Below, piece by piece: positions 3,326 through 36,682 of a stretch of DNA of 40,944 nucleotides (within the stretch, counting starts at the first letter, position 1; each line of letters starts with the position of its first letter). The DNA comes from a virus. Below the pieces are notes generated by a model. That model was not told where the DNA came from. It did no database searches and saw only the letters and a list, made by a program, of their open reading frames with translations. Position numbers and translations under genes: made by a program. The stretch spans positions 1-40,944 of IMG/VR virus record IMGVR_UViG_3300025889_000270; one strand, written 5' to 3'.

Positions 3326-3943
3326 ATGTCACACTCAAGGCTTGATCGTCTTAACAGGATGAAGGTTGTGTACCGTAAAGACCCTCACTCTGATAAACCA
3401 ACTGAGGTTTACTGGTGGGGTCGCTTTTATGAGTATGGAACCCATCAATGCTTTGATTTATTTAGAAGCAAAGCTAAAATAACGACGTACAAGTCCTTAA
3501 AATGGCACAGCATCGTATTAAAGTATCTCAACCAAGAAATGTCAAAGGATAAGTTTAGAGATGTTTTATATTACATAGGTAATCCTTTAAATGAATTCAT
3601 TACATTTGAGATAAGCGAGCTAATTATAGAAGACATAATAAAAAACCTTGATACTTATGACTTCAGAATAGCACCAAAGAATAAATCAAGGAAAATTATA
3701 TTTAATGACGGCGTTCCGTTAACCATCAATGAAAAGCTAAAGATCGTTGGTAGTCTTATTGGCAGAGGCAAACGCTTCAGCGAAGAAGACATCTACGAGT
3801 CAATGCTATACATAAATGGTTGTGGCGACAAAATAACGGTGAGTAAAATAGCTCGTATGCTTGGTTGCTCAGACCGTACCATACATCGGAACATGAGTAA
3901 TCAATTAAAAGAAGAAAAAGATTTACTCAATGCGTCATTATGA
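3326..3943 (+). CDS. helix-turn-helix protein coupled to second sigma factor
   Basis: This 205-residue protein has a C-terminal helix-turn-helix (about residues 172-195: VSKIARMLGCSDRTIHRNMS), the 'IAxxLGxSxRTxxR' pattern of replication-initiator and regulator DNA-binding domains. The N-terminal part, rich in Tyr/Trp and Lys, is not recognised. It begins 43 bases after the previous gene behind a TAAGGGG leader, one of few SD-like sites here, and ends in an ATGA overlap with the sigma gene, so it could act with it in transcription control. Alternatively it is a DNA-binding replication protein. Confidence 0.6.
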   Translation: MSHSRLDRLNRMKVVYRKDPHSDKPTEVYWWGRFYEYGTHQCFDLFRSKAKITTYKSLKWHSIVLKYLNQEMSKDKFRDVLYYIGNPLNEFITFEISELIIEDIIKNLDTYDFRIAPKNKSRKIIFNDGVPLTINEKLKIVGSLIGRGKRFSEEDIYESMLYINGCGDKITVSKIARMLGCSDRTIHRNMSNQLKEEKDLLNASL

Positions 3944-4698
3944 AAAAATACGACCCGCGTACTTACGCGTCTTACAAGGACAGTGTAAGCGCAGCAAGGG
4001 CTAGAATTAAAAAAGAAACACTAGCCAACTTAAAAAGAGATGAAGTAATTACAATGTACCTACCGCTCGTTGAAAATATCGCCAGAAAGTTCTCTACTAG
4101 CCATCAGGCTAGCGGTGTAATGAGTCTAAACGATATGATACAAGAAGGCTCGATAGGTTTGATAATGTCATATGATACTATCAACTGGGAAAAAATCAAG
4201 CAAAGTCCAGATCCAGAGCGTACCATACGATCTTTCTTTTCTAAAAGAATAAAAGGTGCAATACGTAGAGCTATTGACAAAAACAGAGGTGACATACGTA
4301 TTCCAGAGCATAAGTTAAACGAGATACGAAAAGACAACGGCAAAGACAAGAAGTTAATGCAAATGTTCTTTAACAGTGTGTTCTTGTCTATAGATGAAAA
4401 GTTAGAGAATGACGAAGATTATTCTAACCAAGTTGTCGACAATTCTAAGCCATATATGATACACAAGATCAACGATTATCTTATGGACCTCATGTCAAGG
4501 GTTTTAGAGGAGAGAGAGTATGAGGTTGTAAGGTTATCTTACGGGTTAGACTGCGACAAGCATTCTGCCAAACAGATCGCTGAAATCGTCGGCATAAACG
4601 TCGATACCGCGCACGTACGCGTGTCTCAGATAAAACGTAATGCACTGGAAAAATTAATTGAGCGCGTAGATCGAAACGCGTTGTTAGAGTTCATGTAA
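3940..4698 (+). CDS. divergent sigma-70 family factor
   Basis: This 252-residue protein has the sigma-70 layout: region 2 at about residues 34-115 (MYLPLVENIARKF, SLNDMIQEGSIGLIMSYDTI, RTIRSFFSKRIKGAIRRAID) and a region 4 helix-turn-helix at about 205-242 (SAKQIAEIVGINVDTAHVRV, SQIKRNALEKL). It is far from the RpoD-type factor upstream and lacks the conserved WWIRQ region 2.3/2.4 signature, so it probably recognises a different promoter class, perhaps late genes. It starts in the ATGA overlap with the helix-turn-helix gene and is followed directly by a tRNA gene. Confidence 0.85.
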   Translation: MKKYDPRTYASYKDSVSAARARIKKETLANLKRDEVITMYLPLVENIARKFSTSHQASGVMSLNDMIQEGSIGLIMSYDTINWEKIKQSPDPERTIRSFFSKRIKGAIRRAIDKNRGDIRIPEHKLNEIRKDNGKDKKLMQMFFNSVFLSIDEKLENDEDYSNQVVDNSKPYMIHKINDYLMDLMSRVLEEREYEVVRLSYGLDCDKHSAKQIAEIVGINVDTAHVRVSQIKRNALEKLIERVDRNALLEFM

Positions 4699-8981: not shown

Positions 8982-9622
8982 AAGATAGATTTTGGGACGC
9001 TAATGAAGCGTTTGAGTACTACTTAGATCTCATACGGCAGTTTGGCTGGAAAACAGATGTTGGTACTAAAAAAATAAGCAACGTTGGGTTTCACATAACA
9101 AATCCAGAGAAAAACGAAATAAGAACACCAGAGCGTAAATGGAGTAAAGAGTACGCAGAAGCTGAGTGGCAGTGGTACTTATCCGGTGATCGTCAAGTAT
9201 CTAAACTAGGTGAGATATACGGTAAGGTTCCAGTAATATGGGAGAAGATGGCCAATAGCGTTGGTGATGTAAACTCTAATTACGGTTGGCAATGGGAACG
9301 CGAGCATCAAATTGATTATGTCGTGTCAGAACTCAAAGCAAATCCAAGTAGTAGAAGAGCAGCTATAAGCATATACGACGGCAAAGAGTGGTCACACTAC
9401 AGAAAAGACACGCCTTGTACTTTTGCTATACACTTTTCTATTGCATCAGGCCATCTAAACATGACCGTTATGATGCGCTCTAACGATCTCTGGTTTGGTT
9501 TCTGCAACGATCAGTACTGTTTTTCAGAACTACAAAAGATGATCGCAGAGAGACTGTCTATGCCAGTAGGTGAATACTACCACTTTGTTTGTGACTTACA
9601 CTTATACGAAAAACACTTATAA
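8978..9622 (+). CDS. thymidylate synthase / pyrimidine hydroxymethylase family
   Basis: This 214-residue member of the ThyA superfamily methylates or hydroxymethylates the C5 of a pyrimidine nucleotide using methylene-tetrahydrofolate. Visible parts are SSRRAAI (phosphate-binding Arg 126/127), TPCTF with the catalytic C147, RSNDLWFGF (167-175) and DLHLYEKH (206-213). Aligned without gaps to E. coli ThyA, D178 falls where N177 selects uracil; T4 dCMP hydroxymethylase also has Asp there. The protein is about 50 residues shorter than ThyA. The exact substrate (dUMP or dCMP) is therefore open. Confidence 0.82.
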   Translation: MKDRFWDANEAFEYYLDLIRQFGWKTDVGTKKISNVGFHITNPEKNEIRTPERKWSKEYAEAEWQWYLSGDRQVSKLGEIYGKVPVIWEKMANSVGDVNSNYGWQWEREHQIDYVVSELKANPSSRRAAISIYDGKEWSHYRKDTPCTFAIHFSIASGHLNMTVMMRSNDLWFGFCNDQYCFSELQKMIAERLSMPVGEYYHFVCDLHLYEKHL

Positions 9623-9625
9623 ATT

Positions 9626-10396
9626 ATGTATTATATTTATCATATCCCTGGTAAAAAGATTGGCGTGGCGCGTAATCTTAAATACAGGGTAACGCTAATG
9701 CAGGGTTACCAGCCTGGCGAGTATGAAGTACTTGATCAAAGCGACAGCATTGATTACATTTCTAATCGGGAAATAGAGCTTCAGAAAGCGTATGGCTACG
9801 CGGTAGATCCAGTATTGTACAAAGATCTTTTTAAATCATATAATAAAAACAATGCCATGATTACATTTAGTAGCCAGACGACGACTTTTCCGTTCGAGAG
9901 AAAAGACTTAAGAGAAAAATTAATAGCTTATATAGGCCATTCTTGGATGACAGAGGATGGTTTATTTACTATTGATAAAGAAACCATTGACTGGATCGCG
10001 AAGAACGCACAGAAGTCAATGTTTGATAAAGAAAAAAGTTACATATATAATAAAGCATTTGCTGAGTACTTATCTGAAAAAGATAGTGTAGAGACCTCAG
10101 AAGTGTTTGATAACATCCGCAAGTGGGCAAAAGACCGGGGTCTGTACGATAAAGGGGATGTGAAGACGCAGTACGTTAAACTCATGGAAGAAGCAGGAGA
10201 GTTAGCGCAGTCTATTATCAAACAAGATGATGTTGAGTTTGTAGACGCTATAGGGGATATAGTTGTCGTATTAACGAATTTAGCTCATTTAGGTGGCTAT
10301 ACTATTGAGGAGTGTATTGATGCTGCTTACACGCAGATCTCTACAAGAAAAGGTGCGATGGTTAATGGTTCATTTGTAAAGCAAGAGTCTTTATGA
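9626..10396 (+). CDS. GIY-YIG-like domain fused to MazG-type NTP pyrophosphohydrolase
   Basis: This 256-residue two-domain protein carries a C-terminal MazG-type helical NTP pyrophosphohydrolase at about 158-250 with the metal motif E189-x2-E192 ... E204-x2-D207 (MEEAGELAQS, VEFVDAIGDIVVVL). MazG proteins clear or convert nucleotides, and phage versions may manipulate host nucleotide pools or (p)ppGpp. The N-terminus (MYYIYHIPGKKIGVARNLKY then R, and EIELQKAYGY at about 49-58) has the strand pattern of a GIY-YIG nuclease-like fold, with YIY...KIGVA in place of GIY...YIG. Catalytic competence of this half is uncertain. An ATGA overlap links it to a second small helical protein. Confidence 0.78.
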   Translation: MYYIYHIPGKKIGVARNLKYRVTLMQGYQPGEYEVLDQSDSIDYISNREIELQKAYGYAVDPVLYKDLFKSYNKNNAMITFSSQTTTFPFERKDLREKLIAYIGHSWMTEDGLFTIDKETIDWIAKNAQKSMFDKEKSYIYNKAFAEYLSEKDSVETSEVFDNIRKWAKDRGLYDKGDVKTQYVKLMEEAGELAQSIIKQDDVEFVDAIGDIVVVLTNLAHLGGYTIEECIDAAYTQISTRKGAMVNGSFVKQESL

Positions 10397-24830: not shown

Positions 24831-27800
24831 TTAACTACTGACAAATATCTCTGAGTTAACTGCAAATAGTTCTTTATTGTTTCCTGTTGTTTGTGTCATC
24901 TCAACTAACGCGTAGTATCCAACTATACCTGATGTGTTAATTTGGCTATTCTTAACAAAGAACACAAAATCACCATCCTCTATGCTAGTACCACCATCGT
25001 CGTAAACTATACCTTCAGTGTTGTTAACGCTAACAAGCCATTGACCACCACTTTGGCTTACGTCTGTACAATTACCTATTTTGTACACATTGCCATTTGA
25101 TTTTTGGTAAAAAACCAAATCATCGGCAGCCTCTTGTAAAGATACATTTATCTCGTTATTAAAGAAAAGTTCCATAGTTGGCGTTACTGCCCCAATAATG
25201 TCCACAGTATCTATACCTTGTACTGAGAATTCACTGGTATCTAGTGTACCTGTTTGAGTACTGTTGTTCCAAGAATCTACTCTACCCCTAATATAGTTGT
25301 AGTATATACCTTCTTTATTTTTCCATGTAACAACTTCACCGTCTTGCTGGTCTGTATCAACAGTCGCTGTCCAACCATCATCACCTTCGTATGATAATGT
25401 CTTAAAGTTCTTTATTCTAGAAGGCTCATCATTATGTATCAATATAACAGATGTGTTATACTGTGTACCATAGAAGTTAGATCGAGTAGTATTGGTATGA
25501 GAGTATAGATTACCGTTTTTGAATGTATAGTATATATTATTCAAAGAAGCCCCACACTCTGGCACAAAGCTCAATCTAGTTGACCAACCATCTACGTTTT
25601 CTTTAAACGCTAATGTCTCACCGTTTAACGTAACATTGTAAGATGATCCGTCTTCATCATACGAGCCGTGTATATGACCGTTATGTACATCTAGAGCGTC
25701 GGTAATGTAATCAGACATACCTTTACCAGATATTTCAGTGATACCGTCTCTAGACAGTCTTATAACAGCTCTACGAGCCTTATCTACAAAGTATGCTCTA
25801 AAACCAAAGCTAACAAAAGACTCTGGATTCTTAGATATACCATACTCACCAACATAAGGTGTTGTTTGTCCAAGCACCCTGTTAGTTGCCACAAGGTTTG
25901 GATTACCATCAGCGTTATACAAAGCGTCTTTGTTAGCTAGTACTCTAAATACCTTATCTTCACATAGTACGATGAGATCGGTATCTCTAGCATGTAGCTT
26001 CTGTATAGTCCCGTATATTGGGTTTAAATCTTTGGTAATAGACTCAGCTGTATTAAACTGGTTTAGGTTGTTTACACCTGAAGTAGAGTTGTATATGCCA
26101 CTGTATATCATACCATGGCCTCTTCTCTCTTGAGAGTAAACCTCTTCGATGGTACTAGAAGCTTTAACACCTTTACCCATTGTCTTGGCGTTAAAGTCGT
26201 CTCTAATTCTATTAGATTCAACACCGTTGCCAAAAGAGTACACATTGAAGTAATCTAACACTTGCTCTGTTTGCAACTGAGCGATTGGTATTGCTTCTGT
26301 AGCTTCGAAGAATATATCTAGATCAATAGCCTCGTTTGGTTCAACTTCAAAAACAGTAGGGTTAGGAGAACTAAGTGTAATAGTGTTCTCATCAAAGACT
26401 ATAGGTAATAACCTTTTTCTTTTAGATATCCTTACAGCGTCAGCTGTAAAGTCCCCATCAGTAAAAGGTGTAGTCATTTTTATGTTCCAGTAGTAACCTG
26501 TTTCATCGTCAGTGTCTCCAGAAGACAATGGTTGTCTGTCGTAACTACCTTTCGTAACAGTATCTACAATATATAGTGAGCTCCAAGAGTCATCAGTACT
26601 ATTTTGGAACTGAATCACATCACCACTGCTAATAGCCGCATCGAATGCATTACCGTTAGTGCCAAAGTCTATATTATTACTGTCGTATGGTGCAAAGTAG
26701 AAACCAAACAAGTCAGAACCAATTGTTGGCTGACCATGTGAGTCGATGCTTGGTTGAGCGTTAGCATGTTCTTCCCAAGCAAACATATCTAGAGTAGCAG
26801 GTGGCGTGTCGGTAGCATCTGGATCATCAGACAGTGTGTTCTGTATATAAGGAACTCTCTTTAAACCGTCTTGCTCATAATCACTAGGGTCATTTGTAAA
26901 GTTGTATATAACACTTTCTTCAAATAGAACATCTCTGTTGATCTTAACAAAGAATCTTCCCTGGTATTCTTTTCTAGCTTCTTTTTCTTTTTTGTACACC
27001 TCTACAGTAAACCTATCAGAGCTAGAAAGACTTTGTATAAAACCAACATCAGTTAGTTTTTCTTTTGTTGTTATCTCGTAGCAATCATGTGAATCACCAG
27101 TATAGCCACCTCTTTCTATCTCGTAAAACTGGCTAGCATTGGTACCTTTTCTAAATCTTATGTAAGAATCGTAATCAAAAGAATCAAAGAACTCTGGATT
27201 TTCAGCTGATGTTGGTCCTTCAAACTTGAACGTCTTTAAGTTGTTAGCGACTGGAGTATCAGAACCTTTAACCACCTCTGAGCCTGTGTTGTAGACTCTT
27301 TTTATAGAAACAGCATCTGGTACTTCATTCTGTATATCTAAGATCTTGTATCTAGAAGGCGATATAACAGGTTCGTCTGAGTTGTGTTTTTTCTTAAGTG
27401 TAAGAAAGTCTCCTTCCTGTACTTTATTACGCTCAGCACTTGGCATAGACAACCAAACAGTACCGTCTGAATCATCAGCATAGTACCTATCAAGCACGAT
27501 GTTGTAGTATTCGTTAGATATGTCCTTAACGTAGTATTTAAAATGTGTCGCCCAAGAAGGAGCGTCTTGACCAGACTCAGCTTTGATTCTATTAACCTTG
27601 CTTGATTTGTCTATGTCTACCTTTACAGTAGAGTAATCATTCGTGAATACAGGTGTTTCTCTACCATTAGTATCTAAGTAGACAATACCTACCTGGTAGT
27701 TTCTCAAAGATTTTACACTCGACTCAGGTGTTTTAACACTTGTTATAGAGCTTGACTGTAACCTAACCGTAATATCAGCTTCATCAGTAATGTTGTAACC

Positions 27801-29111
27801 CTGAACGTAGTTACCGTAAACAAGTCTATTACCTATAACCTCTTGAGATTTAGCTTTTAATGGAACGTTGTCGTAAGCCCTCAGTAACTGGTTAGATTCC
27901 ACTAGGTTGCTAATCAGTTCTGACGTTATGGAGTAACTTGTTCTTGTAGTAGGTATAGATTCTACCTTGTACACATTGGGTGATGAAGAGTCTTTATATA
28001 AAATCTCTACGTACTCTACGTCGGATGGTGGTGTTTCAAACCCGCTTATGGTCAATTGCCTTAGGTTGTTTACCATGCCGGTATTATACGCGTTCATAGA
28101 TATATACCTAAAATCACCGGGTACAAAAACAGCGTTAGTCCAAGGTGAAAAACCAGAGACTTCGCCATCAATGTATCTCCATCTGTAAGCAAACCTAGGG
28201 AAAGACAACTCAAACATTGGTCTTTCTTCTTCAAGGATACACTTCCATGTATACTCTATAGATTTTATATCAGACGATATAGACTGGATAGTACCAGTAA
28301 CGAATCTCAATAAAGCACCGGTTATAGAAACAACTTCTATTCTAACCTGGTACTCATCCTCGTAATTATTATCGTTTATCTCGCTAGCTGTCAGTACGAT
28401 GATATCACCAGCTTGCCAGTTGGGAGAATCACTTACGGTAAAAGAAATAGAGCTACCTACTTCTCTAGGTACTTTATTACCGTTATAAAGCTCTGTAAAG
28501 TCTTGTTGAGCGGTTACATAGTTCAAGCCAGAGCCAACACCAGATCTAGTAGTTGAAGAAGCCACATAGTGTGGCCTTTCGTTTGGTTTTTTCTTTATAA
28601 CAGTAATATCTGAAGCTATAAAGTCTCTACCATATACAGTCGTGTGGTCTTGACCAGTTTGGTTTGTACCGGACTTAAATCTTGATATTAGTATTTTTCT
28701 AGGCTCATTAAGATCATCTGTCCACATGAGCATACCATCGAACACGTTTATGCCAGTGATTAAGTTGCCGATGCTAAAGTTTAATACACTGTTGTAATCC
28801 ACTATAACAAAAGATACAACCTCGTTTGACTCATTGTACTCTAAAACAAAGTCACCTTCGTCTGCGGTTACAAACCAATATATCTTATTATTCTGTGTGT
28901 CTTTTACATTACCAATACAGGTAGCGTTTGTAAAGTTAAATGAAGACTTGGCTGTGTTACCAAGAACACTTTCTATAGCGCCAACATCAGACCCCTCTGA
29001 ATCGCTTATTTTTACGTTTAAGGCATCTCTGTATTCACCATTTGGTACTAAGCGCTCATCGAGATCCTTGTTCATCTTACCCGATGTAAATACTCTCTTC
29101 AACTCTGGCAT
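24831..29111 (-). CDS. giant tail hub/nozzle protein (stabilization-protein type, 1426 aa)
   Basis: This 1426-residue, beta-rich protein has N-terminal residues ELKRVFTSGKMNKDLDERLV and GEYRDALNVKISDSEGSDVG, which I recall from large tail-tube/stabilization proteins of crAss-like and marine podoviruses, functionally comparable to T7 gp12/P22 gp10. The first third has propeller-like repeats (IYWFVTADEGDFVLEYN, MLMWTDDLNEPRKILISRF). A later block (GTIQKLHARDTDLIVLCEDK, then YGISKNPESFVSFGFRAYFV) resembles the conserved C-terminal part of such proteins. It probably forms the distal tail below the ring proteins encoded just upstream, 3 bases away. Confidence 0.72.
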   Translation of the reverse strand: MPELKRVFTSGKMNKDLDERLVPNGEYRDALNVKISDSEGSDVGAIESVLGNTAKSSFNFTNATCIGNVKDTQNNKIYWFVTADEGDFVLEYNESNEVVSFVIVDYNSVLNFSIGNLITGINVFDGMLMWTDDLNEPRKILISRFKSGTNQTGQDHTTVYGRDFIASDITVIKKKPNERPHYVASSTTRSGVGSGLNYVTAQQDFTELYNGNKVPREVGSSISFTVSDSPNWQAGDIIVLTASEINDNNYEDEYQVRIEVVSITGALLRFVTGTIQSISSDIKSIEYTWKCILEEERPMFELSFPRFAYRWRYIDGEVSGFSPWTNAVFVPGDFRYISMNAYNTGMVNNLRQLTISGFETPPSDVEYVEILYKDSSSPNVYKVESIPTTRTSYSITSELISNLVESNQLLRAYDNVPLKAKSQEVIGNRLVYGNYVQGYNITDEADITVRLQSSSITSVKTPESSVKSLRNYQVGIVYLDTNGRETPVFTNDYSTVKVDIDKSSKVNRIKAESGQDAPSWATHFKYYVKDISNEYYNIVLDRYYADDSDGTVWLSMPSAERNKVQEGDFLTLKKKHNSDEPVISPSRYKILDIQNEVPDAVSIKRVYNTGSEVVKGSDTPVANNLKTFKFEGPTSAENPEFFDSFDYDSYIRFRKGTNASQFYEIERGGYTGDSHDCYEITTKEKLTDVGFIQSLSSSDRFTVEVYKKEKEARKEYQGRFFVKINRDVLFEESVIYNFTNDPSDYEQDGLKRVPYIQNTLSDDPDATDTPPATLDMFAWEEHANAQPSIDSHGQPTIGSDLFGFYFAPYDSNNIDFGTNGNAFDAAISSGDVIQFQNSTDDSWSSLYIVDTVTKGSYDRQPLSSGDTDDETGYYWNIKMTTPFTDGDFTADAVRISKRKRLLPIVFDENTITLSSPNPTVFEVEPNEAIDLDIFFEATEAIPIAQLQTEQVLDYFNVYSFGNGVESNRIRDDFNAKTMGKGVKASSTIEEVYSQERRGHGMIYSGIYNSTSGVNNLNQFNTAESITKDLNPIYGTIQKLHARDTDLIVLCEDKVFRVLANKDALYNADGNPNLVATNRVLGQTTPYVGEYGISKNPESFVSFGFRAYFVDKARRAVIRLSRDGITEISGKGMSDYITDALDVHNGHIHGSYDEDGSSYNVTLNGETLAFKENVDGWSTRLSFVPECGASLNNIYYTFKNGNLYSHTNTTRSNFYGTQYNTSVILIHNDEPSRIKNFKTLSYEGDDGWTATVDTDQQDGEVVTWKNKEGIYYNYIRGRVDSWNNSTQTGTLDTSEFSVQGIDTVDIIGAVTPTMELFFNNEINVSLQEAADDLVFYQKSNGNVYKIGNCTDVSQSGGQWLVSVNNTEGIVYDDGGTSIEDGDFVFFVKNSQINTSGIVGYYALVEMTQTTGNNKELFAVNSEIFVSS

Positions 29112-31573: not shown

Positions 31574-32995
31574 TTATGCAGTAGTGTCTTTGAACAATAC
31601 GAAGTTGTTCGCGCCTTGAACACACAAACATCTTTCAGATAGCATGTGTACGTTCATTTCATCAATGTCGCTAGTGTAGTTACCACCAACAGAACCAGTG
31701 ATCCAAGACTTCATGCGACGATCGTCAGCTTCAGAAGCGCGGTAACGAACGTGCAAGAATGGACGCTGGATGTTTTTACCCAAAGTTTGGTCGTATACAG
31801 TAGAAACACCTGCTGGAACCAAGATACCGTCGATGTCACCAGTCAACCCACGAGTTGCAGCGTCATTCAAGTATTTCCAGTCAGTTTTGTAGAAATCGTA
31901 AGAACCACGACGGAAACCAGAGAAGCCCAAGTTCAATGCCATGTCTTCGCTGTTTTCGAATACTCCGTAAGAAGTACCACCTGTTCCGTAGCTGTTAGCA
32001 CGAGCCAACATGTTGTCCATAGCCAAAGAAGTACCACGATCTAAGAAAAGCATGTTTTCTTCGATAGCACCTTGCTTGTCAAGTTCTTGAAGAACGATAT
32101 CAAACTCACCCAAACCAGTCAAACCAGTAGAGTTGTTGAAGTCGTGATCATTGAACTGAAGACCTCTGCTTTCAACAGCAGCGAACAAACCTTCAGTACC
32201 ACGTACTGTAGCACCAGAAGCATCAGTGATACCAGCAGCAGCTGTAACTTTCTCTGCTTCAACCATGGTCATTTCCAAGTAGTCTTCGAAACGTAGACGA
32301 GTCTCGTGCTCAGACTTCAAGTACCATAAGTAACCAGAAGTACCCAATTCAGAAGTAACTTCAACCCAACCGATCTGAGCAGTGTCAGAACCGTTGATGT
32401 TGTACTTATCTTTCATGATGATTGGAGAGTTGCTGAACTTTTGGAAACCTGCATCGATTGATCCAGACATTCCAGCAGCACCTTTTCCAAACTCAGAACC
32501 AAATACAAACACTTTCAAGTCTGGGTTAGTACCAGCAGCAACGAAAGCAGCTGGCCAAGTGTTACTGTCGTATGGGTATGCTTCGATGCTGTTAGCAGTA
32601 ACAGACTTAACAAAAGCACGTACAGTAGTAACACCAACAGCTACAATGATAGTTTGGTTAGGGCGAATAGCGTGACCAGTGATGTTGATAGTGTTGTCAG
32701 TAGCTGTGTTAACAGTAGCAATAACCGCGTCGTTGTAAGCAACGTGCAAACGGCCTTGTTCTGTCCATACAACTTCATCAGAAGCCATTGGCATTTCAGC
32801 ACCAACCATTCTCAAGAAAGATGAGATAGATCTGTTACCGTAACGCTCTACTTCTTTTTCGTAAACTTCAGGCAAGAATTGTGAAGCGAAGTTAAAATCG
32901 TTGTCTGCAAGAGACAAGTAGTTCTTATCGAACAATGTTTTTGTTGGGGACGGGGTTAACCCTGCTGGGTATGCCCCCTGTGATGCAAAACTCAT
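31574..32995 (-). CDS. major capsid protein (473 aa)
   Basis: This 473-residue protein is assigned as the major capsid protein from its size, its place after the scaffold-like gene, and a sequence style I recall from crAss-like/HK97-fold capsid proteins (FASQFLPEVYEKEVERYGNR, FLRMVGAEMPMASDEVVWTE, RRMKSWITGSVGGNY). The leader is A-rich (TTAAAAAATG) with no Shine-Dalgarno, the usual form in Bacteroidota. Codons look more GC-rich and regular than neighbours (many AAC, CGT, GGT, AAG), as expected for very high expression. It is followed by a strong terminator. Confidence 0.82.
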   Translation of the reverse strand: MSFASQGAYPAGLTPSPTKTLFDKNYLSLADNDFNFASQFLPEVYEKEVERYGNRSISSFLRMVGAEMPMASDEVVWTEQGRLHVAYNDAVIATVNTATDNTINITGHAIRPNQTIIVAVGVTTVRAFVKSVTANSIEAYPYDSNTWPAAFVAAGTNPDLKVFVFGSEFGKGAAGMSGSIDAGFQKFSNSPIIMKDKYNINGSDTAQIGWVEVTSELGTSGYLWYLKSEHETRLRFEDYLEMTMVEAEKVTAAAGITDASGATVRGTEGLFAAVESRGLQFNDHDFNNSTGLTGLGEFDIVLQELDKQGAIEENMLFLDRGTSLAMDNMLARANSYGTGGTSYGVFENSEDMALNLGFSGFRRGSYDFYKTDWKYLNDAATRGLTGDIDGILVPAGVSTVYDQTLGKNIQRPFLHVRYRASEADDRRMKSWITGSVGGNYTSDIDEMNVHMLSERCLCVQGANNFVLFKDTTA

Positions 32996-33013: not shown

Positions 33014-34222
33014 TTATTTTCTAATTTTCACACGCAGTCTACCTGAATCATCCCCACTAATCGCTCTAACCTTAAAGCCGCCAACTTGTGTAGTCTGCTC
33101 GTGAGTACCTCTAGGACTCATATCAACATTCTTAGAACGTTGCGAACTTTCCTTCATCGCGTCAGCTTTACCTTGTTGGTAAAAGTGATTAGCCACAGCG
33201 TCTGCGTTCATCGCTGTGAACAAGGCTTTATGATAACCCTTAGCATCTCCAATAGTACTGTCATTACCCAAAAACTTTTTGGTAAAATTACTAATGTCGC
33301 TTTGAGTCTCTTTGACCTTACCAGCATCTTTGACGTTAAAACGGTATTTCTTTTCGCCTACTTGATATTCAAAACCTTTGAAATCTTGGCTAAAGACCTT
33401 TTCAGTCTTCTGTGTAAATACCGATGCTTGCCTTTGTGCTAGCTTGGATGATTCCTCATTTTCTTTTTGGTAACGATTGAAAAAATCAACCGCTTTTTGC
33501 TGGTCTGGCGTTAACCTACTACCAGCTTTAATTTCATCGTAGTACTTGCTCTTCATATTGTTCAAGTGCTCCTTGGCACGCTGAACTTCTTCTTTGTAGA
33601 GTAGTTTCTTACGTTTAATCTCTCTTTCGTCGTCTAACTCCTCGTCGTAAGAGTAGCTGTCTTCAATCAAGAAATTAATCTCATCGTTATCAAGGTGTGG
33701 TTTAGTCACCTTGTAATATTCTTGAACAAGTTGTTGTTCATCAAGCGAGTCAACATCTTTATTTAACCTAACGTAGTCTTCTAATGAACCACCAGTCTCG
33801 TTCATAAACTCAACTAGCTTTTCTACGTTTTCAGGTAAATTAATGTTTACCTTTTCTTCTACTGTCTCTGTAGGCTCTGGCTCTACATCAACATCTTCAG
33901 CTTTTGTTTCAGTAACCTCTTCGTCTGTTACTTCTTCGAGCACCCGTACTTCTTCAACGGGCTCTCCGTCATCTTGTACGGACTCATCTTCGCTGGACTC
34001 TTCCCGTACTTCGCTGGGCTCGTCGCTTGCTGAGTTATCGGCTGTGGGTTGCTCTGACACTGGCAATTCATTGTCGGGCATCCGCACCCCGGTTTCTTCG
34101 GCATTTTCGCTTGATACATTTTCCTCTTGTTTAAAATTCCTTAAATCAACTCGGATGACACCATCATCCTCGTGTTTTGCCTGGACTTTTTCCTCCTGGC
34201 TTACAGTGTTTTCTTCTTCCAT
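33014..34222 (-). CDS. scaffold-like head protein with acidic N-terminus (402 aa)
   Basis: This 402-residue protein lies between portal and major capsid, the classic scaffold position. Residues about 1-125 are extremely acidic and disordered-looking (SDEPSEVREESSEDESVQDD, EEVRVLEEVTDEEVTE). The middle (about 200-290) is charged helix/coiled coil (KRKKLLYKEEVQRAKEHLNN), and the C-terminus is basic (GRLRVKIRK). This is the usual scaffold layout of an acidic/helical body with a basic capsid-binding end. Residues 35-98 are overlapped in the +1 frame by a separate Cys-rich reading frame, and this stretch is clearly more GC-rich than its surroundings. Confidence 0.65.
   Translation of the reverse strand: MEEENTVSQEEKVQAKHEDDGVIRVDLRNFKQEENVSSENAEETGVRMPDNELPVSEQPTADNSASDEPSEVREESSEDESVQDDGEPVEEVRVLEEVTDEEVTETKAEDVDVEPEPTETVEEKVNINLPENVEKLVEFMNETGGSLEDYVRLNKDVDSLDEQQLVQEYYKVTKPHLDNDEINFLIEDSYSYDEELDDEREIKRKKLLYKEEVQRAKEHLNNMKSKYYDEIKAGSRLTPDQQKAVDFFNRYQKENEESSKLAQRQASVFTQKTEKVFSQDFKGFEYQVGEKKYRFNVKDAGKVKETQSDISNFTKKFLGNDSTIGDAKGYHKALFTAMNADAVANHFYQQGKADAMKESSQRSKNVDMSPRGTHEQTTQVGGFKVRAISGDDSGRLRVKIRK
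33928..34119 (-). CDS. nested Cys-rich SPAK/SPYK-motif protein, overprinted on scaffold gene (63 aa)
   Basis: This 63-residue frame lies wholly inside the scaffold-like gene, +1 relative to it. It opens with MYQAKMPKKPGCGCPTMNCQ (five Cys overall) and then carries repeated Ser-Pro-x-Lys motifs: SPAKYGKSPAKMSPYKM and SPLKKYGCSKK. Such SPAK/SPYK peptides occur, to my recollection, in small structural proteins of marine Bacteroidota phages, so this is unlikely to be chance. The ATG at 34119 is preceded by AAGAGGAAA, a Shine-Dalgarno-like site, while the host gene start has none. An in-frame TAA lies just upstream. The overlapped stretch is GC-rich, as expected for dual coding. Basic, disordered, possibly capsid- or DNA-bound. 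Confidence 0.6.
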   Translation of the reverse strand: MYQAKMPKKPGCGCPTMNCQCQSNPQPITQQATSPAKYGKSPAKMSPYKMTESPLKKYGCSKK

Positions 34223-34258
34223 GTTAAAATAAAATATTAAAAGATACTATTAGTTATA

Positions 34259-36682
34259 TTACCTAGGTTCAAAATAACCTAATCCCATACCTCCAGTCAA
34301 TGTATCGTTACCAGATGATTCAAAATCTTTAGGTGGTTTGTTATTCTGTCTTTGGTCTATTAATTCACTTTGTTGTGAAGCTTGGAGTTTAGTTCTCTCA
34401 TCTTTCCTATCCTCCTTGTATTTTTCGTTTTCCTTCTGCTTGTCTAGGTCTATACCTCTTAACTGCATGTTGTACTCAAACTCTTTAGCCATCAACTCCT
34501 TCTTGATCTGAGCCTCTGTCTGTAGCTTCTGCATATCTAGTTGAGACTGCAGTTGAGCAAGTTGTGCTTTACCTTGGCTAATAACCTGTTGTTTCTGAGC
34601 TTCTGCTTGTGCAACGGCTTGCTGTGTCTGAGCGTTTGCTTGAGCTTGAGCCTGCATGTTCTGCTGAGCCATTTGCTGATCCATCTCTTGCTTCTTACGT
34701 CTACGAAGCTTTAGCAACTGGTTTGCTAGCTTAACATTCTTTATCTCTCTTACGTCAATAGCGTCTTCAAGGTTTATAGACTGTTGAGCAAGTGCTTGTT
34801 GTATATTGTTTTCAAGAAGTTGCTTTTCCTCTTCATCAGGTGCTAATTCTATGAATATACCAAAATCATGGATATGTAGGTCTGTAAGCTCATCTAGTAT
34901 ACCAACCTTATGTGCACCTATTTTGTTTATCAAAGCTTCACGCATTGGTGAAAACTCTAAAACATCTGATACCATCAAAGACAAGCCCTCTGCAAGCTCA
35001 GCTGTTAAGAACAAGCTAGACTGTAGTATGTGTCTTGTAGCAGTATTAGAATTTGCAGCAGCAAGTTTCTGAACACCTACAAGAGCATTTTTATCAGGCA
35101 TAGAACCATCACGTGCTTCATTTAATCCAGTTACATCACGGATCATCTGTAGGTAATAGTTATATGTGCTTATCAACGCCTGTATCTTTTGCCCTCCAGC
35201 ACCAGAAGTTACCTCTTGAATAGGAACTTTACCAGGGTTCATATCACCATCTGACGTGAATGAACGCCCTATGATACTACCCGTTTGGAAGAACATATTA
35301 AGTGCCTCCTGCGGATTATAGTTTGTGCCGTTACCAAGATCAATTTCAGCAAGACCATCAGCATCGATGTAGATACCATCTGGCACCATACGCGTTAACA
35401 CTTGTTGTAATTTCAAGTGTGTAAGCTGAATCATATCAGCAAAACCAGTAATTCTTGAAACTAGAGACTCGATACGGCCTTGGTACATGCGTGGTGCGAC
35501 CAAACTGTAGTTCATCTTGACCTTAGTATCATCACTCTTTGGACGCATCATATTCTTAGCCATATCCCATTTCAACAGAATGTCTGTACCTAGAATAAGA
35601 GCTCCTTCGTATAATACCTCTAGTGATCTTGATATCTTACCAAAGCTACCTTCAAGATCTACCGGTGGGTCAAACTGATCGTCTTTGATTATAATCTTAC
35701 TAGCACCTGTTGCTGTTTCTTTAACCTTGTAAACCTCATTCATGTAGGTCTTGTAGTTAAAATACAACACCTGTACAGTGTTAGCATCGATAGTATGATT
35801 GTTTCTTGGTGAGTTACTGTAGTGACCTCTGTCGTAGATACTCTTCTTAAGTATCTCGTCTAGTTGATCGTCAGTGAGTTCTGGAAACTGTTTCTTTAAT
35901 TCATTAACAGGTACGTTCTTTACCTCTCCAACGTAATATATATCATCAAAATATGGTGACTCAGAAAAAGAGTACACCATTGCTGATGGGTCAACGTATT
36001 CTACTTTAATACCTTCAGACGTATTAAATGTGTTTTTAACACATGCCATACCAAGAACAGTGAGATCATAATTAAGTCGTTTTCTTATGTTTTCGTACTT
36101 ATTGTCCTCTAGTATTGTTCTTATAGCCTGCTCCTCAGCTATCTCTACACCTTGCTTGTATGTGAGCTGCATATGTAGCTCTAGCTCTTCCATACTGTCA
36201 GGTAATTGCTCTTTTGGGTTTTCGTATAAACTAACACCAAAAGCTTCTTCAGCAAAGTCAGATAATTCTCTGGTTTGCATATCCTTCAACACGGATTCCA
36301 TGTACTGTGTTCTTTTCGATACACCGTATGGATCCTGTGCAAATGCTTTTATATCATAAGTTCTCTCAGATATACCGTTTACAACAATATCTACAAACTT
36401 TGGTATAATAGGTACTGGTTTCCAGTCTAAGTTTAGGTATGATAAATCACCGTTAATTGATAATTCATCTTTGTATTTCTGGATAGACTGCTCACCACGG
36501 GCATATTGTCTTCTGTTATGGAACGTTTCTTGGTTACTATGGAAACGATAAACGCCACCGTCCCTTTTAAACCATTCGTCCTCGATCGCTTTAGCAACCT
36601 TTAGCCCATATTCTGAGCTAACTTTTTCTAAATCACTAGCTACTTGGCTAGGAAAATAACTCTTTACAACTGACTCAGCCAT
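34259..36682 (-). CDS. portal protein (807 aa)
   Basis: This 807-residue protein directly follows the large terminase with an 8-base overlap, as portals do. The body contains TAQFP-type portal features: ARGEQSIQKYKDELSINGDL, MVPDGIYIDADGLAEIDLGN, and the helical stem part GGQKIQALISTYNYYLQMIR with DVTGLNEARDGSMPDKNALV (conserved in podoviral/crAss-like portals). The C-terminal ~105 residues (about 664-770) are a Gln/Ala-rich coiled coil (QAQAQANAQTQQAVAQAEAQ), a barrel-like extension that can reach into the capsid. It is the DNA gate and the attachment site for the ring proteins. Confidence 0.83.
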   Translation of the reverse strand: MAESVVKSYFPSQVASDLEKVSSEYGLKVAKAIEDEWFKRDGGVYRFHSNQETFHNRRQYARGEQSIQKYKDELSINGDLSYLNLDWKPVPIIPKFVDIVVNGISERTYDIKAFAQDPYGVSKRTQYMESVLKDMQTRELSDFAEEAFGVSLYENPKEQLPDSMEELELHMQLTYKQGVEIAEEQAIRTILEDNKYENIRKRLNYDLTVLGMACVKNTFNTSEGIKVEYVDPSAMVYSFSESPYFDDIYYVGEVKNVPVNELKKQFPELTDDQLDEILKKSIYDRGHYSNSPRNNHTIDANTVQVLYFNYKTYMNEVYKVKETATGASKIIIKDDQFDPPVDLEGSFGKISRSLEVLYEGALILGTDILLKWDMAKNMMRPKSDDTKVKMNYSLVAPRMYQGRIESLVSRITGFADMIQLTHLKLQQVLTRMVPDGIYIDADGLAEIDLGNGTNYNPQEALNMFFQTGSIIGRSFTSDGDMNPGKVPIQEVTSGAGGQKIQALISTYNYYLQMIRDVTGLNEARDGSMPDKNALVGVQKLAAANSNTATRHILQSSLFLTAELAEGLSLMVSDVLEFSPMREALINKIGAHKVGILDELTDLHIHDFGIFIELAPDEEEKQLLENNIQQALAQQSINLEDAIDVREIKNVKLANQLLKLRRRKKQEMDQQMAQQNMQAQAQANAQTQQAVAQAEAQKQQVISQGKAQLAQLQSQLDMQKLQTEAQIKKELMAKEFEYNMQLRGIDLDKQKENEKYKEDRKDERTKLQASQQSELIDQRQNNKPPKDFESSGNDTLTGGMGLGYFEPR

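Follow-up and report, generated by a model that had tools for sequence, protein, structure and literature searches.

Evidence for a small Cys-rich, SPxK-repeat gene embedded out of frame in the scaffold-like gene of a candidate crAss-like phage

The locus

The stretch analyzed here (the window) comprises 40,944 nucleotides, positions 1 to 40,944 of the viral record IMGVR_UViG_3300025889_000270. It carries a set of head genes on the minus strand, preceded by a terminase gene (phrog_6681). The gene under study, referred to here as the host gene, belongs to this set:

34259..36682, minus strand: portal protein gene, directly upstream of the host gene (phrog_6547, E 7e-156)
33014..34222, minus strand: host gene, encoding a 402-residue scaffold-like protein, between the portal and major capsid genes
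33845..34222, minus strand: N-terminal host codons 1–126, a disordered tail (pLDDT ~30), which holds the overlap
31574..32995, minus strand: probable major capsid protein gene, directly downstream of the host gene (phrog_13704, virion structural protein, E 2e-95)

The product of 31574..32995 also matches Crass_capsid, below threshold, and the C-terminal domain of the Crassvirus muzzle (PF25729) is matched above the cut-off within 24831-29111 (E 9e-12). On these two matches, the window is a candidate crAss-like phage. Two plus-strand genes, at 1358-2215 and 3940-4698, look sigma-factor-like by eye.

The host protein has no significant match in PHROG, Pfam, or the PDB, and these searches revealed no homology to a known scaffold. 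Its AlphaFold2 model is disordered over residues 1–126 and helical from residue 131. A fold search of the PDB with this model returned nothing significant, and the fold resembles only uncharacterised phage proteins, such as one from Cellulophaga phage phi18:3. We call the gene scaffold-like because of its position between the portal and capsid genes and its predicted form, a disordered acidic part followed by a helical body. Within the overlap described below, the host segment carries a charge of -19.

The nested reading frame

The original prediction placed a 63-codon frame, shifted +1, inside the acidic part of the scaffold-like gene. The coordinates were verified: the frame lies fully within 33014-34222, in a frame different from that of the 402-residue host, which is the arrangement that defines overprinting. 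It covers approximately host codons 35–99, inside the disordered part, and has the following features:

33928..34119, minus strand: nested coding sequence, 63 residues, +1 relative to the scaffold-like gene, with a Cys-rich head and an SPxK tail
34141..34143, minus strand: in-frame stop, 7 codons 5' of the nested ATG
34120..34139, minus strand: A-rich start context of the nested gene, with A at -3, -6, and -12, determinants as in Flavobacterium johnsoniae
34057..34086, minus strand: CGCPTMNCQC, a CxCx4CxC motif (residues 12–21), kept in 17 of 19 relatives
33949..34020, minus strand: SPAK..SPAK..SPYK..SPLK repeat tail (residues 34–57)

The nested protein, MYQAKMPKKPGCGCPTMNCQCQSNPQPITQQATSPAKYGKSPAKMSPYKMTESPLKKYGCSKK, runs from an ATG to a TAA stop (34119..33928, minus strand). 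Both sequence traits that had first drawn attention to it, the Cys-rich head and the non-random SPxK motifs, bear scrutiny: the head contains the CxCx4CxC motif, a possible metal-binding knuckle judging from its sequence, and four SPxK motifs are observed against 0.24 expected in composition shuffles. The upstream in-frame stop is also where it had been anticipated, and the shared stretch is GC-rich as claimed, at 0.54, compared with 0.39 downstream and 0.38 for the whole window. Sequence searches with the nested proteins in Pfam, NCBIfam, and the PDB gave no match, and structure prediction for the SPxK protein reached a mean pLDDT of 55, leaving the fold unusable. An antisense, Ser/Thr-rich open frame of 129 residues spans the overlap region on the plus strand (33843-34232); it is probably a mirror of the acidic codons.

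Conservation in relatives

Length was rejected as evidence for a gene. When the scaffold gene is shuffled among synonymous codons, a +1 ATG frame of at least 63 codons arises in ~20% of shuffles (p ~0.2), because sequence rich in GAA and GAG reads in the +1 frame as Lys-rich code with few stops. Since length is uninformative, the case rests on comparison. Two scans of IMG/VR, in which scaffold homologues amounted to 481 stretches, yielded 19 distinct host genes that enclose the code for a Cys/SPxK-type protein. The ATG is kept in 19 of the 19, at host offsets 88-106, and so is a stop at the corresponding place. The C-terminal end, SPL[KA]KYGCS[KR]K, is kept across these relatives, with little variation at the residue that follows SP. 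Between 1 and 6 copies of [ST]PxK are present; the Cys head and the SPLxKYGCSxK end vary less than this repeat number. The most diverged member (L012) retains the Cys/SPxK character with a very different scaffold frame. At L028 4104-4370, the nested SPxK tail is enlarged to several SPxKM(M/V)K units, and the host frame stays open as acidic repeats.

A profile scan for the Cys/SPxK protein returned 19 loci, every one of them among the same scaffold loci, and the SPxK protein found no match among cultured phages. The notion that such proteins are typical of marine Bacteroidota phages did not survive this comparison, as they were seen in this clade only.

Dual-coding tests

Conserved boundaries are accompanied by a sharp loss of synonymous change, as the original prediction of an overprinted protein-coding gene implied. 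At fourfold-degenerate sites of the scaffold frame, the difference among the 19 sequences is 0.373 before the overlap, 0.041 within it, and 0.343 after it; for the 11 closest sequences, the values are 0.333, 0.003, and 0.217. Seven pairs together show synonymous differences at 18 of 341 codons in the overlap versus 343 of 2047 outside (Fisher p = 1e-9, an approximate value, as all p-values here are, given that alignment rows are related and pairs may share branches). Ten scaffold homologues that lack the frame show no such drop (0.357 vs 0.384).

The direction of selection was read from pN/pS. In the overlap, this ratio is 0.36 for the nested frame, 1.03 for the scaffold frame, and 1.22 for the third frame; outside the overlap, the scaffold frame returns 0.21. 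The substitutions are likewise displaced: 3' of the overlap, third positions of host codons take 60% of the differences, and inside it the most frequently changed are host first positions, where the nested codons have their wobble base. By these sequence comparisons, purifying selection acts on the nested frame, and over the same bases the scaffold frame evolves near-neutrally apart from staying open and acidic. The idea of constraint in two frames thus stands for the nested frame only, and the scaffold segment is best described as a tolerated linker. A meaningless frame opened by chance in acidic GAA/GAG-rich code, for which only the ~20% of equally long shuffled frames speaks, is practically negligible and was already refuted by the synonymous suppression, the nested pN/pS, the start, stop, and peptide kept in 19 relatives, and the absence of any signal in homologues lacking the frame. 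We conclude that the nested frame is almost certainly a real gene.

A second family in the same slot

Most other scaffold homologues also carry a nested +1 frame in the same place, with the product MPFKSKAQMRFLFATNPKLAKKWQKKYG... or close variants. These small, basic MPFKSKAQ (MPF) products resemble phrog_1375 (best E 5e-7), a family on which we found no papers. In scaffold groups that carry MPF genes, synonymous change is suppressed in a similar way, least strongly in one group. The window protein is like phrog_1375 in being short and basic, in occupying the same +1 slot of homologous scaffolds, and in sharing the [ST]PxKM tail found in some members. It differs in having the CxCx4CxC head in place of MPFKSKAQ, in having no profile match, and in having relatives that reach six SPxK repeats.

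The relationship between the two proteins was approached from their tails and from the scaffold tree. TPAKMSPFKM or SPSKMKNSPFKL forms the C-terminus of some MPF members, and the likeness between KYG-TPAKMSPFKM and the window's KYGKSPAKMSPYKM was equaled in 0 of 500 shuffles. Comparison of the Cys/SPxK and MPF alignments as profiles was not significant, only the tails being alike, and the window protein gave no significant profile match to phrog_1375 or other families; homology over the whole profile was rejected as unsupported. In the scaffold tree, Cys/SPxK carriers form one group (support 95/78, present in 97% of bootstrap trees) with MPF carriers around it, and the absence of any nested frame requires two changes. 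The shared slot, frame, and C-terminal tail suggest descent from the phrog_1375/MPFKSKAQ family, as distinct from membership in it. We consider it likely, on sequence grounds, that the window protein derives from the MPF family by replacement of the head and amplification of the tail. The embedded state in this scaffold lineage would be ancestral, and the window protein would be a derivative with a new head and a multiplied SPxK tail. Rather than having arisen de novo within this scaffold, the window gene probably descends from an older embedded family.

Two scaffolds (L072 and L073, offset 214-337) have a decayed MPF head with a tail, KVKNKFPKMNKTAFSRR, as in the MPF carriers L032 and L047, a second instance of a head change with the tail kept. 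Homologous scaffold lineages without any nested frame also exist (L083 and the L035-L081 clade), so the nested gene is not indispensable to that scaffold. No MPF copies were found elsewhere in SPxK genomes or in genomes lacking the frame, these records being partial. In eleven scaffolds without a nested frame (L035, L036, L041, L042, L046, L050, L066, L070, L071, L080, and L081), the scaffold protein is itself basic over an N-terminal stretch (e.g., GGDMKVKPKKPKQLGKQE) that precedes the KVDL motif. This in-frame stretch might substitute for the lost basic protein.

Giant genes and standalone copies

With the MPF alignment as query against IMG/VR, the best 80 loci were examined. The MPF gene is nested +1 in at least 76 of them, in 65 cases within scaffold-size hosts, all homologous to the window's host, and in 11 within larger or giant ones; in a 77th locus (L141), it lies in an open host that runs past the contig end. 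For 54 of the 65 scaffold-size hosts, the fourfold difference is 0.032 in the overlap vs 0.507 outside. A scan of bacterial genomes with the scaffold found it in one metagenome-assembled contig only, in the MPF version (L126); this contig, binned in the MAG 'bacterium TMED88', has a homologous phage scaffold gene with a nested MPF frame.

The giant hosts include genes of named phages. In Elemovirus, a cultured phage of Flavobacterium sp. BAL314 (NC_055853), the MPF gene sits +1 in the giant gp18 (52379-52507; L093 20380-20508), and in phage MW202828, it sits +1 in a giant gene annotated 'reticulocyte binding/rhoptry protein' (9602-9724; L125 5603-5725, minus strand). The nested gene is unannotated in both records. 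The Elemovirus MPF match is present in 68 Flavobacterium phage records of the collection. As in the window, gp18 holds an unannotated +1 nested gene in an acidic region, but the host is a giant structural gene instead of a scaffold, and the nested protein is of the MPF type. Protein searches connect gp18 with the scaffold hosts at 20-26 bits, a similarity that we read as the host-frame shadow of the common nested gene (DAVQEQSTDESVL...).

When gp18 is compared with its homologue in L127, the overlap shows 12 differences, 10 of which affect the nested wobble base; pS is 0.083 within the overlap vs 0.619 outside. These values bear on the proposal that the constraint acts on DNA or RNA, such as a packaging site, an RNA structure, or a regulatory element, and not on a protein. 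A GC-rich island of ~190 nt in an AT-rich gene speaks for such an element. However, reading frames and start codons should be of no consequence to it, and it accounts neither for the clustering of differences at the wobble base, nor for the nested-frame pN/pS, nor for repeat-unit insertions and deletions that occur in whole codons and preserve both frames. We regard it as extremely improbable.

A query centred on standalone members found 44 standalone and 26 nested +1 copies among 80 loci, although part of the 26 may be artefacts, long frames that open spuriously in GC-rich contigs. In one T7-like contig (L204), the standalone gene stands just before a scaffold gene of a known type (phrog_1052/1018) and the capsid gene. 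Elsewhere, standalone copies often have terminase or portal genes beside them, and some adjoin nucleotide reductase or ParB genes. In L220, L224, L230, L231, L238, and L240, the MPFKSKAQ segment is the in-frame N-terminal part of a longer protein.

Probable read-through of the host frame and the nested start

A nested codon that ends in T and is followed by one starting with AA, AG, or GA creates a stop in the host frame. Such junctions occur 0 times in 2424 opportunities among 123 distinct nested frames of both types, and T ends 354 of the 3429 other codons. Standalone relatives do use T at stop-making junctions (8/21, 6/15, and 1/16). The host frame is therefore probably read through, and over the overlap it would yield a disordered, acidic, and otherwise nearly unconstrained linker.

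The original prediction also gave the nested gene its own Shine-Dalgarno-like motif. AAGAGG indeed stands 4 nt 5' of the ATG, but relatives have AAGAAG, AACAAG, and others in its place. As the motif lacks conservation and does not represent the mode of initiation expected in Bacteroidota, we rejected it as evidence. Initiation in this phylum depends little on Shine-Dalgarno pairing and is favoured by A at -3, -6, -12, and -13 (PMC6847099). What is conserved is this A-rich context: A occupies -3 in 85%, -6 in 85%, and -12 in 100% of nested starts, whereas the remaining internal ATGs in these genes reach 41, 43, and 49%. These figures call for some caution, as they come from related sequences whose host codons are purine-rich at these positions. 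The context supports independent initiation at the nested ATG, and the nested protein would accordingly be made from its own start on the late structural mRNA.

A +1 ribosomal frameshift from the scaffold start, giving a fusion of the scaffold N-terminus with the SPxK protein, would suit a frame that lies +1 relative to translated code. We consider this very unlikely: the open stretch 5' of the ATG measures just 7-16 codons, the ATG and its A-rich context are preserved in all lineages, and standalone relatives share the same MPF start.

Possible functions

A genuine small gene embedded +1 in the scaffold-like gene, combined with the reading of its descent given above and the reading of its function given here, is the best explanation of the sequence data, and we hold it with high confidence as a whole. 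The functional part is its weakest step. Tentatively, the nested protein may be a small, basic accessory that is produced alongside the scaffold and takes part in assembling the head or packaging DNA. This role appears the likeliest because the gene sits among head genes and because of the neighbours of its standalone relatives; the nucleotide reductase and ParB neighbours of some standalone copies mean that a head function is not secure.

The prediction that the same bases encode an acidic scaffold tail and a basic product is borne out, the nested proteins having charges of +10 to +19 and the host segments -11 to -22 in the lineages checked. Binding of the basic protein to the acidic tail had already been raised as speculation; in a fuller version, it would also regulate scaffold assembly or release. 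The opposite charges in every lineage checked, the placement of the overlap within the disordered tail, and the standalone relative adjoining the scaffold gene in L204 are compatible with it. The charges follow, however, from the code itself, AAG AAG being read as GAA GAA, and so need no binding; relatives also lie inside giant genes, and the host segment evolves near-neutrally. Binding of this kind seems improbable to us.

A role outside the particle, for example in host transcription or defence and timed with the late genes, would suit the small size, the basic character, and the possible metal-binding knuckle of the protein, as well as the location of some standalone relatives away from head genes. 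The repeated placement within structural genes, and the many standalone relatives near terminase, portal, or scaffold genes, count against such a role, which we judge rather unlikely. It is doubtful, though conceivable from the sequences, that the family is a portable out-of-frame gene that moves between unrelated long structural genes, always in the phase that turns its Lys-rich code into a stop-free, acidic, disordered linker of the host protein. The host protein would then bear the gene as cargo code, and in scaffold hosts the two products would form a charge-complementary pair made at a fixed ratio.

Relation to known overprinted genes and significance

In phage lambda, Rz1 is embedded +1 in Rz. 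The window gene resembles this pair (PMC5295617, PMC6139136) in being a gene wholly inside another, in a different frame, with both probably translated in the window. Rz and Rz1 are functional partners in lysis, whereas the nested family occurs in two unrelated kinds of structural genes, and the host product is near-neutral in the overlap. Classical viral overprinting involves internal overlaps on the same strand in the +1 frame, with disorder in the overlapping region, and it is the inner frame that arose de novo and varies more (PMC8227390). The nested gene shares the same-strand +1 internal arrangement and the disordered overlap. It departs from the classical case in that the inner family is widespread and more conserved, and the outer segment looks later and tolerated. 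The usual picture of overprinting is reversed here because the inner gene is the conserved one.

The occurrence of a related family in the same frame of two unrelated kinds of structural genes, in many phages, indicates that the arrangement is old, recurs, and is no accident. Annotation misses fully embedded genes, and at this locus the cultured Elemovirus has no such gene in its RefSeq record. Caution is also warranted in comparing unrelated phage proteins, as similarity between their long acidic linkers can be the shadow of a hidden gene. The cultured Elemovirus system makes the expression and function of the nested gene testable.
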